Shown here: in pieces, positions 13,956 to 30,118 of the stretch
Numbering within the stretch: position 1 is the stretch's first letter
How the letters are laid out: each line of letters starts with the position of its first letter
Assembly (NCBI GenBank): GCA_030066265.1
Contig: JASJCF010000003.1
Location: 1-39,502, forward strand
Length of the DNA stretch: 39,502 bases
Reading direction: 5' to 3'
Origin: Acidimicrobiia bacterium
GTDB taxonomy: Bacteria > Actinomycetota > Acidimicrobiia > Spongiisociales > UBA5794
Notes under the pieces: generated by a model
The model's database searches: none
The model's input: only the letters and a program-made list of their open reading frames with translations
What the model was told of the DNA's origin: nothing
Program-made: the position numbers and the translations under genes

Positions 13956-13978
13956 CGGACCTGCCTCTGGCAGGTCCG
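13956..13978 (+). terminator. Post-tRNA hairpin, 10-bp stem
   Basis: CGGACCTGCC-TCT-GGCAGGTCCG beginning 3 nt after the tRNA-Lys discriminator base. Confidence 0.75.
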
Positions 13979-27668: not shown

Positions 27669-28336
27669 GTTTCCTCCCCGACCTTCGGCGGCAGGGGCCG
27701 ATCCGGTCGACGGAGCAATCGCCGGAACATGCCCTCCGTCAGGCCGTCTGCGGCAGCCCCGGTTTCCCGAACCTCCTGGACGGCAGATCCGGTGATACCG
27801 ATGGTCTGGTCCCGCACCAGCTCGGCGAGCTCGGGTGAATCGCTCAACAGGCTCACGATCCCCTCCGTCGACTCCTGGAAGGCGTAGACGGCCAGGACCC
27901 GACCGCGGGCGTATTCGGCGGTCCCGACGTTGGTCAGCCGTTCTCGCTCCTCGGAGATGGCTTTCCTCGTCGGTTCGGTCACACCGGCAATGAAGGGAGC
28001 AACACCGGTCACTTCGGCGAGATACGCGGTCGTGTCGATGGCGACACCGAGCGTGCGGGTGAACGGGTAGGCCATGCGTTGAGCCGATTCCGCAGCTCCG
28101 CTCGCCAGTGCCGGCAGCTCGGAGACCCACCCGACGAACGCCATCACGTTGGGATCGGCCTTCACCAACATCGGGCCGGAGTCCGGTTCGTGGTCGAGGG
28201 CATCGAGCTGCTGAGAGACCTTCATGAGGCGATCGATCGCCTCGCCGATGCCCCCGGCGACGATCCTCACGACGGTCTTGTACGCGTCCTCCGGAGAGCG
28301 TTCCTCGAGCTCGGCGGTCTCGGTCTGGTCCGACAT
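27665..28336 (-). CDS. Hypothetical protein translationally coupled to the RDD gene
   Basis: MSDQTETAELEERSPEDAYKTVVRIVAGG...; ATG after TAGGGT-N7; stop overlaps RDD start. Confidence 0.75.
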   Translation of the reverse strand: MSDQTETAELEERSPEDAYKTVVRIVAGGIGEAIDRLMKVSQQLDALDHEPDSGPMLVKADPNVMAFVGWVSELPALASGAAESAQRMAYPFTRTLGVAIDTTAYLAEVTGVAPFIAGVTEPTRKAISEERERLTNVGTAEYARGRVLAVYAFQESTEGIVSLLSDSPELAELVRDQTIGITGSAVQEVRETGAAADGLTEGMFRRLLRRPDRPLPPKVGEET

Positions 28337-28348
28337 CGAACAAACCCT

Positions 28349-28456
28349 AATCGGGCCGATCCGTGGCCTCGCCTCGGGCCCCATCTCGGGCCTCGTCTCG
28401 GACGTGATCCCGGGCGCGATCGGGGGCACGATGTCGATGCCCGTCACGGGTCGGGA
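28349..28456. repeat. Degenerate 12-bp tandem repeat, about 9 units (core like CTCGGGCNCGAT)
   Basis: aatcgggccgat ccgtggcctcgc ctcgggccccat ctcgggcctcgt ctcggacgtgat cccgggcgcgat cgggggcacgat gtcgatgcccgt cacgggtcggga, in register. Confidence 0.6.
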
Positions 28457-28511
28457 ACCCATATACTCCATCGCCGTAGCCGGTCTGGCTCTGTACACTG
28501 GCGGGCGCCCA

Positions 28512-28584
28512 GCCCCCATCGTCCAGCGGCCTAGGACTCCGCCCTTTCAAGGCGGCAACGGGGATTCGAATTCCCCTGGGGGCA
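28512..28584 (+). tRNA. tRNA-Glu (TTC)
   Basis: GCCCCCA/TGGGGGC acceptor; anticodon arm CCGCCCTTTCAAGGCGG; GGGGATTCGAATTCCCC. Confidence 0.95.
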
Positions 28585-28588
28585 CAAC

Positions 28589-28666
28589 GGGGGCGTGGTG
28601 AAGTCTGGAGTTCACGCCGGCCTGTCAAGCCGGAGGTCGCGGGTTCAAATCCCGTCGCTCCCGCCA
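28589..28666 (+). tRNA. tRNA-Asp (GTC), CCA encoded
   Basis: GGGGGCG/CGCTCCC acceptor; anticodon arm CCGGCCTGTCAAGCCGG; ends GCCA. Confidence 0.95.
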
Positions 28667-28733
28667 AGCTCGGTCTCCGCGGAGATGCGAGCTGAGTTCC
28701 GAAGGAACTCGCATGTGATCCGAAGGGATCACA
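28667..28733 (+). other. Three consecutive hairpins in the tRNA-Asp/tRNA-Phe spacer
   Basis: AGCTCG-GTCTCCGCGGAGATG-CGAGCT (28667-28693); GAGTTCC-GAA-GGAACTC (28694-28710); TGTGATCC-GAAG-GGATCACA (28714-28733). Confidence 0.8.
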
Positions 28734-28736
28734 CTC

Positions 28737-28809
28737 GGTCAGGTAGCTCAGTTGGTAGAGCGCCGGTCTGAAAAACCGGAGGTCGGCAGTTCGACCCTGC
28801 CCCTGACCA
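28737..28809 (+). tRNA. tRNA-Phe (GAA)
   Basis: GGTCAGG/CCTGACC acceptor; anticodon arm CCGGTCTGAAAAACCGG. Confidence 0.95.
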
Positions 28810-28811
28810 CG

Positions 28812-28918
28812 CGGACTCCCCGGAGGGGAGTCCGTTCGAGTTTGCGTTCGCAAACTCGGGCGATCCTGCTGCGGGCTTCCCATTCGGGAAGCCCGTTCGA
28901 GTTTGCGGAGCAAACTCG
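28812..28918 (+). repeat. Duplicated two-hairpin module behind tRNA-Phe, period about 60 bp
   Basis: CGGACTCCCC-GGA-GGGGAGTCCG (28812-28834) + CGAGTTTGC-GTTC-GCAAACTCG (28837-28858); CGGGCTTCCC-ATTC-GGGAAGCCCG (28872-28895) + CGAGTTTGC-GGA-GCAAACTCG (28898-28918). Confidence 0.9.
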
Positions 28919-28933
28919 TGCGGTCCTCTCTGG

Positions 28934-28963
28934 GCGCACGGACGTGCTGCGCACGTCGTGCGC
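28934..28963 (+). other. Additional hairpin, 13 bp with one bulged G
   Basis: GCGCAC-g-GACGTGC-TGC-GCACGTC-GTGCGC. Confidence 0.8.
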
Positions 28964-29032
28964 TTTGCTCCACCGTCCGGACGGCCGGCACGCAAGCTTC
29001 CGTTTGGAGCAAGCCGTGCGAGGGCGTTCTCG

Positions 29033-30118
29033 CTATCTGGCGCCAGCCGGACGGTGGTTTGACGCCTGTTCGCCGAGCAGGAGGCAGGAGTCGCCGAACT
29101 CGTGCCATAGATAGTCACCGGCGACGGCGCGGTCATAGGTGTCCGCCACCAAGTTCGTACCCGCCACTGCCCGGAGCAGGTCGATGTGGGACGCCTCCGG
29201 GGGGTGCCATCCGGTGATGAGTCCATCGACGATGCGCGCTGGACGATCGGGTCCGAGCACGAGGTCGGTCCAGCCCGTCGAGGCGGCGATCGTTCCGTCT
29301 TCGGCGATCGCGGATTCGAGTGCGCGGGTGACGGTCGTCCCGACTGCGATGACCCGTCCTTCGTGCCGACGCGTCGCGTTGATCAGTGACGCTGTCTTCT
29401 TCGAAACGGCGAATCGTTCGGGCTGCGGAGGCTCGTGGGCCTCCTGGGAGGACACCCCGGCGTGGAGCTCGATCCCCGCCAAACCCACCCCGTTCCTCCG
29501 CAGCGCACGCACCAGTCGTGCCGTGAAGGGTCGGCCTGCGCTCGGCATCTCGGCGCTGCCGGGCCACCTGCGCCGATCGGCGAAGAACGTCTGATACATG
29601 GAGAGCGGCCACTCACCCGTCACATAGCGGTAGCGGATGGGCCTGCCATGGCGTTGCATGAGGGAGCGCACCCCGCCGTCGACTTGGATGCTCGCTCGCC
29701 ACAGGCGAACCGCTCCGCCTGCGCCACCGTCCGCTGGATCCTCCAGCACGATCGAGCCGAGGGGCACTCGGGCTCTCTCGCCGGGTCGAGCGTCGAGGAT
29801 CGGCCCCGCCGCATCAGGCCGCCGCAACTCGATCACCCACCTGCCGTCGTCGAGGGGCGTGGACAAGTGAGTAACAACCGGGAGCCCGTTGAGGCTGCCT
29901 TCAACCGCCGCCGCCATGGTGGGACTTGTGTTGACCACGAGCAGATCGCCCGACGCCAGGAGGGCGGGTAGCTGTACGAAGGTCGAATCGACGAACCCAC
30001 TCTGTGAGGCGACCATCAGTCGTACCTCGTCGCGCTCGAGGCCCCGTGCTTCAGCCGGGGCAGTGGCCGCACGATCGTCGGGAAGCGCAGATGTCAGCTC
30101 GGCTGATCCGAGTGTCAT
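29033..30118 (-). CDS. QueA-like S-adenosylmethionine:tRNA ribosyltransferase-isomerase family protein
   Basis: GDLLVVNTSPTMAA, YRYVTGEWPLSMYQTFFADRRRWPGSAEMPSAGRPFT, GWTDLVLGPDRPARIVDGLITGWHPPEASHIDLLRAVAG; ATGA overlap with SDR gene. Confidence 0.85.
   Translation of the reverse strand: MTLGSAELTSALPDDRAATAPAEARGLERDEVRLMVASQSGFVDSTFVQLPALLASGDLLVVNTSPTMAAAVEGSLNGLPVVTHLSTPLDDGRWVIELRRPDAAGPILDARPGERARVPLGSIVLEDPADGGAGGAVRLWRASIQVDGGVRSLMQRHGRPIRYRYVTGEWPLSMYQTFFADRRRWPGSAEMPSAGRPFTARLVRALRRNGVGLAGIELHAGVSSQEAHEPPQPERFAVSKKTASLINATRRHEGRVIAVGTTVTRALESAIAEDGTIAASTGWTDLVLGPDRPARIVDGLITGWHPPEASHIDLLRAVAGTNLVADTYDRAVAGDYLWHEFGDSCLLLGEQASNHRPAGAR

Follow-up and report, generated by a model that had tools for sequence, protein, structure and literature searches.

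How transcripts end without U-runs in high-GC bacteria is disputed: a U-tract is reportedly needed in vitro, yet many 3′ ends lack one. U-poor or clustered hairpins have been described as terminators in such bacteria (PMC8355165, PMC12403871, PMC5335608), and neither U-less terminators nor hairpin clusters close to stop codons are new as such. The clustered-hairpin terminators of Gupta and Pal 2021 (PMC8355165) consist of two neighboring hairpins a short way past stop codons, often free of a U-run and commoner in high-GC genomes; sequence conservation near the clusters was not found, and the hairpins were treated as independent sites. The I-shaped, U-less terminators of high-GC bacteria (the Mitra/Nagaraja class; PMC5335608, PMC12403871) carry a GC-rich stem and few or no U's at gene 3′ ends. 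REP and BIME repeats with their RAYT transposases (PMC2817692, PMC3733652) are likewise short palindromes, multicopy, tandem or mosaic, and extragenic.

Here, we describe a two-hairpin module that shares features with each of these systems. It has the adjacent hairpins of the clusters in PMC8355165, in contrast as a fixed unit with a TT or TTG spacer, a semiconserved second stem, and tandem copies, placed flush at gene ends and also at tRNAs. Its GC-rich stems and scarcity of U's recall the I-shaped terminators of PMC5335608 and PMC12403871, single hairpins defined by their missing U's, whereas the module joins two different hairpins that share a spacer, and the proposed U-tract would be the arm of the next hairpin. 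A literature search, which covered open-access and a few subscription papers, returned no published report of the module or of a terminator family in Acidimicrobiia.

Two Tandem Units Behind tRNA-Phe

The window (the whole 39,502-nt stretch that was analyzed) is contig G000:C126 in a draft genome totaling 2.35 Mb. Loci of class-level relatives agree coordinate for coordinate with named Acidimicrobiia MAGs (for example, G049:C218:6752 with JABDLU010000133.1, Acidimicrobiia bacterium SS_bin_83, and G055:C123:1106 with JAOTYB010000048.1), so the bacterium, an uncultured actinobacterium, probably belongs to the class Acidimicrobiia. The window contains tRNA-Glu, tRNA-Asp, and tRNA-Phe at 28512–28810. 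The last gene of this cluster, tRNA-Phe(GAA) (28737–28810, + strand), does not encode its CCA. As the initial annotation had proposed, a module of two hairpins occurs twice behind it, ∼60 bp apart, at 28812–28858 and 28872–28918; each unit is made of a 10-bp hairpin, TT, and a hairpin with the arms CGAGTTTGC/GCAAACTCG. In unit 1, hairpin 1 (28812–28834, + strand; arms CGGACTCCCC/GGGGAGTCCG, loop GGA) begins 2 nt past the tRNA-Phe end and is followed by TTCGAGTTTGC (28835–28845), which comprises the TT spacer and the 5′ arm of hairpin 2 and may serve hairpin 1 as an imperfect U-tract. Hairpin 2 (28837–28858) has the loop GTTC. The linker GGCGATCCTGCTG (28859–28871), which resembles the linkers 3′ of unit 2 and of the tRNA-Ala copy described below, leads to unit 2, where hairpin 1 (28872–28895; 10 bp, arms CGGGCTTCCC/GGGAAGCCCG, loop ATTC) is again separated by TT from a hairpin 2 (28898–28918) with identical arms and the loop GGA. 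The two first stems differ at pair 4 (A-T to G-C) and pair 7 (C-G to T-A) and both stay fully paired, as had been noticed at the outset. The compensated changes and the similar linkers lead us to conclude that the two units arose by tandem duplication of a 60-bp stretch.

A third hairpin, seen in sequence and fold and also anticipated by the initial annotation, follows on the same strand at 28934–28963, with 13 pairs and a bulged G28940. It is the most terminator-like in the series and runs into a short T run, TTTGCT (28964–28969); the earlier statement that none of the hairpins has a U-tract, therefore, holds for the four module hairpins, where TT alone follows each hairpin 1, and fails here.

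Folding of a 160-nt region gave −106.2 kcal/mol against −66.6 (SD 3.7) for shuffled sequence (z −10.7; 0 of 200 shuffles). Perfect hairpins of at least 8 bp number 22 in the window compared with 6–8 in shuffles, and 5 of the 22 lie within 28714–28918. The word CGAGTTTGC occurs five times in the window (0.25 expected), four of them in the two units. Since both copies share the arms of hairpin 2, the lowest-energy fold pairs these arms across copies; during transcription, the local hairpins would be expected to form first.

Pairing Is Maintained Through Changing Sequence

We built a covariance model, R1, from five copies and scanned 60 relatives, with one genome per species, at E ≤ 0.01; unit 1, a seed member, scores 64.4 bits and unit 2, outside the seed, 54.9 bits. 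Matches were found in 28 of the 60 genomes, with a range of 0 to 32 per genome (G018, 32; G012, 28; G042, 23; G049, 22; G010, 19; G055, 14; and the genome of the window, G000, 11), counts that include palindromic reverse matches of the same place (3 of the 11 in G000). The other 32 genomes, including G001 of the same genus, gave no match, and chance matches are therefore rare. In total, the family comes to ∼200 detected copies.

Among 71 distinct modules read with their flanks, stem 1 has 48 different 5′ arms, is free of mismatches in 65, and mostly carries the loop TTC or GAA; the spacer is TT in 34 and TG or TTG in 21. Stem 2 has 34 different 5′ arms with a common base, (C/G)GAGTT (GAGTT/AACTC), and a variable loop side, a conservation that is partly an effect of the search because all R1 seeds carried CGAGTTTGC. 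In 25 stem 1 sequences of equal length, each of the 10 pairs has in at least one case changed at both positions, 98.8% of cells are paired vs. 64.6% in shuffled controls, and covariation reaches 0.901 vs. 0.220, figures that are upper bounds because the matches were chosen by a structure model. Sliding the partner by one base lowers pairing to ∼40%. These pairs were counted by script and on alignment A6; alignments A4 and A5, which hold palindromic reverse matches, were set aside.

Loci found by hairpin 2 alone are free of this selection for stem 1. At 9 of the 13 evaluable loci (in Acidimicrobiia, outside the window's own genome), a perfect hairpin of 7–10 bp ends exactly at the TT, and all nine stems are different; 5% of control positions reach 7 bp. 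Selection on structure, as the initial annotation had suggested, is strongly supported by stem 1 pairing through changing sequence in relatives, and the test that it had set itself, structural conservation in relatives, came out in its favor with the module in 28 of 60 genomes and a covarying stem 1.

Copies of the module with other stems lie elsewhere in the same genome: behind tRNA-Ala(TGC) (CGGACCTGCC.. TT CGCAGTTTCC..), at C41:4390–4435, and on C22; C47 holds a hairpin-TTG-hairpin array with unrelated stems. The exact hairpin 2 occurs in 17 copies, spread over 8 of the 395 class genomes (reversed control, 0 matches), all within the window's family and a second family in the same order. The initial annotation was thus right about the tandem pair and, in treating the duplication as local, missed both a family dispersed over the genome and the order and the hairpins between tRNA-Asp and tRNA-Phe; recurrence in the same genome and across the order rules out a local accident.

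Sporadic copies with a flush first hairpin appear in contigs labeled Thermoanaerobaculia, Chloroflexi, and Gammaproteobacteria and could reflect transfer, convergence, or misbinning alike. In a pattern search of all bacteria, the exact hairpin TTCGAGTTTGC..GCAAACTCG was multicopy in some Treponema, Alistipes, and Lachnospiraceae genomes (L159, L161, L173, L192, and others), mostly without a flush first hairpin, and we set these matches apart as another phenomenon.

Copies Lie Flush at Gene 3′ Ends in One Orientation

In 20 of the 71 modules, the start falls between −6 and +2 nt relative to the 3′ end of a tRNA (Arg, Ile, Phe, Leu, Ser, Ala, Lys, Met, and Glu). Another 15 start between −5 and +3 nt relative to a same-strand stop codon that terminates a run of 80 or more open codons. 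The flush rate was 6% for random positions, and the opposite strand gave 0 of 48. Several of the remaining modules lie 3′ of tRNA-like 3′ ends, are later copies in arrays, or sit at contig ends. The TGA stop is itself part of stem 1 in G018 and at G000:C22. Modules with different stems are found in different genera behind the same tRNA: tRNA-Leu(GAG) in G029, G026, and G012; tRNA-Phe in G000 and G018; and tRNA-Lys in G018, G049, and G026. Across the order, the module keeps its architecture, its pairing through changing sequence, a single orientation, and a flush 3′-end position.

Because the hairpin pair is strictly oriented, flush with 3′ ends, and U-poor, its most fitting interpretation is an intrinsic terminator that carries its own backup. 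Judging from sequence, we consider it probable that the two units form a directional, U-poor tandem intrinsic-terminator (3′-end) module at the end of the tRNA-Glu/Asp/Phe transcript and that they come from a family duplicated in tandem and copied or homogenized within genomes. Stacked U-less terminators had been among the options first listed, and they fit best, given the flush position at gene 3′ ends, the strict orientation, and the U-poor tails.

Hairpin 1 would fold once RNA polymerase leaves the tRNA (or, at other copies, the stop codon), and the UU-CG-AG-UUU that follows (UUCGAGUUU) would act as an imperfect U-tract on which polymerase pauses and releases the transcript. UUCGAGUUU would double as the 5′ arm of hairpin 2, which, on read-through, could fold and offer polymerase another stop. 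Unit 2 and the hairpin at 28934 may be further backups toward a convergent queA-like gene (29033–30118, − strand; queuosine biosynthesis protein QueA type, PF02547, E 2.4e-63). Since the CCA is not encoded here, the tRNA-Phe trailer would probably be removed just past the discriminator base by a cleavage of the RNase Z type. At copies whose stem 1 includes the stop codon, hairpin 1 would be masked by the terminating ribosome, and hairpin 2, ∼25 nt on, would stay accessible; the overlap is relevant to the way in which such a ribosome and a terminator use common bases.

Measured against the canonical intrinsic terminator, the module has the GC-rich hairpin in the expected place, where a transcription unit on its own strand ends, and lacks the U run directly after it, with TT only after hairpin 1 and TTTGCT only after the 28934 hairpin. 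The definition of I-shaped or clustered hairpins as strong hairpins close behind a gene end without a U-run (PMC8355165, PMC12403871) does fit. Several points count against termination. A terminator scan found no T-tailed terminator on the + strand here, hairpin 2 accompanies 2 of 9 tRNA hairpins in the same genome, and G001 of the same genus is without the module; moreover, the mycobacterial polymerase reportedly needs at least an imperfect U-tract in vitro, according to work cited in PMC5335608. The family is natural material for this dispute: ∼200 copies with fixed spacing and two separable hairpins, together with single-hairpin loci in relatives, make the question testable by part swaps.

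Dispersal Within Genomes

Stem 1 arms are more similar within than between genomes (0.60 vs. 0.47; 0 of 500 label shuffles), the base of hairpin 2 hardly differs (0.79 vs. 0.77), and the flanks are near random (0.31 within, 0.28 between). Tandem copies are common, with a spacing of some 55–210 bp. Loci within 500 bp of a contig end number 18 of 62 against 4.0 expected, a pile-up of the kind produced by repeats that break short-read assembly, and arrays of the module help account for the assembly breaks in these genomes. The best explanation is that the family is tandemly duplicated and copied or homogenized within genomes.

Such dispersal would also be expected of a palindromic repeat (REP/BIME-like) that spread or was gene-converted and settled at tolerant gene 3′ ends, with any effect on transcription secondary. 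The uneven copy number (none in G001), the tandem copies, the genome-specific stem 1 subfamilies, the nonhomologous flanks, and the enrichment at contig ends all suit it. The usual mover of bacterial palindromes is the REP-associated Y1 transposase. We found this Y1 transposase/RAYT (PF01797) in only 1 of the 60 genomes, which is not a module-rich one (control genomes were detected as expected), so 59 of 60 lack the transposase. Unlike REPs, the module begins a few bases from gene ends and always in one orientation, and its stem 1 has no invariant sequence. Compared with REP/BIME and RAYT systems (PMC2817692, PMC3733652), it shares the dispersed, multicopy and tandem habit and has neither the Y1 transposase, nor a fixed stem 1 such as a palindrome with a tetranucleotide tag, nor inverted pairs. 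We regard this explanation as quite unlikely. The missing U-run and the missing RAYT and sequence hallmarks weaken membership of the module in these described classes, and not the idea that it works like a terminator.

The preferred terminator reading has a bolder extension, unlikely though deserving a place here: the two-hairpin element may be a spreading terminator cassette, copied or converted between gene ends within a genome, landing flush at tRNA ends or bringing an in-frame stop (the TGA within stem 1, seen in G018 and at G000:C22). Such a cassette would multiply in tandem and, in some lineages, oust ordinary terminators, and hairpin 2 would be preserved by some requirement of a polymerase or factor. 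Should copies indeed spread through a genome, dispersing elements would have to be counted as one class of terminators.

Possible 3′-End Protection and Other Functions

The order tRNA-Glu-Asp-Phe is maintained throughout the family, and many relatives have a hairpin 3′ of tRNA-Phe, frequently followed by two to five T; in relatives without the module, these are ordinary hairpins with T-rich tails. When sites were picked solely by position, a hairpin of at least 8 bp begins within 12 nt past tRNA-Phe in 10 of 23 relatives vs. 10% of control windows, and the same test gave 9 of 25 tRNAs in the window's own genome vs. 4%. A second hairpin, present at two of those nine, is not general. In the window, a hairpin 2 nt 3′ of tRNA-Lys(TTT) (13956–13978, + strand; arms CGGACCTGCC/GGCAGGTCCG) is a relative of stem 1 without hairpin 2. 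The Asp-Phe spacer (28667–28736, + strand) contains three hairpins, and relatives commonly have a strong hairpin there. This intercistronic hairpin within a tRNA operon is perhaps a partial terminator or a processing site. No sigma-70–like promoter was found within 28300–29200.

These hairpins bear on the possibility that the module protects RNA 3′ ends or, as the initial annotation also proposed, serves in their processing, with hairpins blocking 3′ exonucleases or guiding cleavage after Rho-dependent or downstream termination. Stable hairpins flush with a tRNA end or stop codon would suit a 3′ boundary, and full termination between tRNA-Asp and tRNA-Phe of one cluster would lose Phe. However, a pure barrier needs neither a TT/TTG spacer nor a one-way orientation, and in relatives, single hairpins with T-rich tails occupy the same place; we consider this function improbable.

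The strong fold (z −10.7) would also suit a structured small RNA that acts in trans and has its gene behind tRNA-Phe, which is very improbable: Rfam at the gathering score matched only tRNAs in the window and six module loci, and the independent structured RNA that had been suggested is disfavored because the module is tied to many gene ends and its stem 1 has no conserved sequence. DNA uptake signals paired as terminator hairpins, which in Neisseria and Pasteurellaceae likewise place a recurring word in hairpin arms at terminator position (PMC1852404), are a most implausible source of the word repeated in hairpin 2, since that word occurs once outside hairpins in 39.5 kb and varies between copies (34 different 5′ arms in 71 modules) and the exact hairpin occurs three times in 2.35 Mb. 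Genuine uptake signals have ∼1,000 or more copies per genome, also as single words, a number that these counts contradict.

Additional Hairpins and Repeats at tRNA Genes

Several further structures were seen at tRNA genes. The strong hairpin between tRNA-Asp and tRNA-Phe, present in most relatives (L002–L030), is often CGCCCGGAC..GTCCGGGCG-like, with differing stems. In another genus (G024), a different two-hairpin module (GGGAACGCC.. / GGAGAATCC..) occurs twice 3′ of tRNA-Phe (L015), an independent duplication at the orthologous place; G024 also has a tRNA-like 3′ fragment that is copied in tandem together with the two-hairpin module of the present family (L315, L317). In the genome of the window, the module 3′ of tRNA-Ala (G000:C136; L042, 1624–1790) is followed by at least three more decayed hairpins with the recurring linker CTGCGGCGGACCT between them. 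The pattern GCGGAC..GTCCG gave 34 + 32 matches in this genome, not above the reversed control (28 + 30); the five matches with a stem of at least 9 bp all lie downstream of tRNA genes.

A long inverted repeat stands behind tRNA-Ile(GAT) and a tRNA-Met(CAT) (G000:C136:9022, L036; G000:C38:12417, L041 and L084) and finishes in a sequence complementary to the acceptor 3′ strand of that tRNA itself (CACTTTCCAGAAGCC..GGCTTCTGGAAAGTG..); differences between the two repeats are compensated, and a further copy lies downstream. This repeat could refold the acceptor arm. On G000:C10 (L157, − strand, ∼360–520), the tRNA-Glu(CTC) gene is followed downstream by a copy of its 3′ half, with the hairpin GCGGACTCGCCCAGCGAGTCCG in the T loop of the copy. 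Finally, at the end of a contig (G000:C23, L037), the hairpin behind tRNA-Thr(TGT) is succeeded by a (CAGTTTT)n microsatellite.
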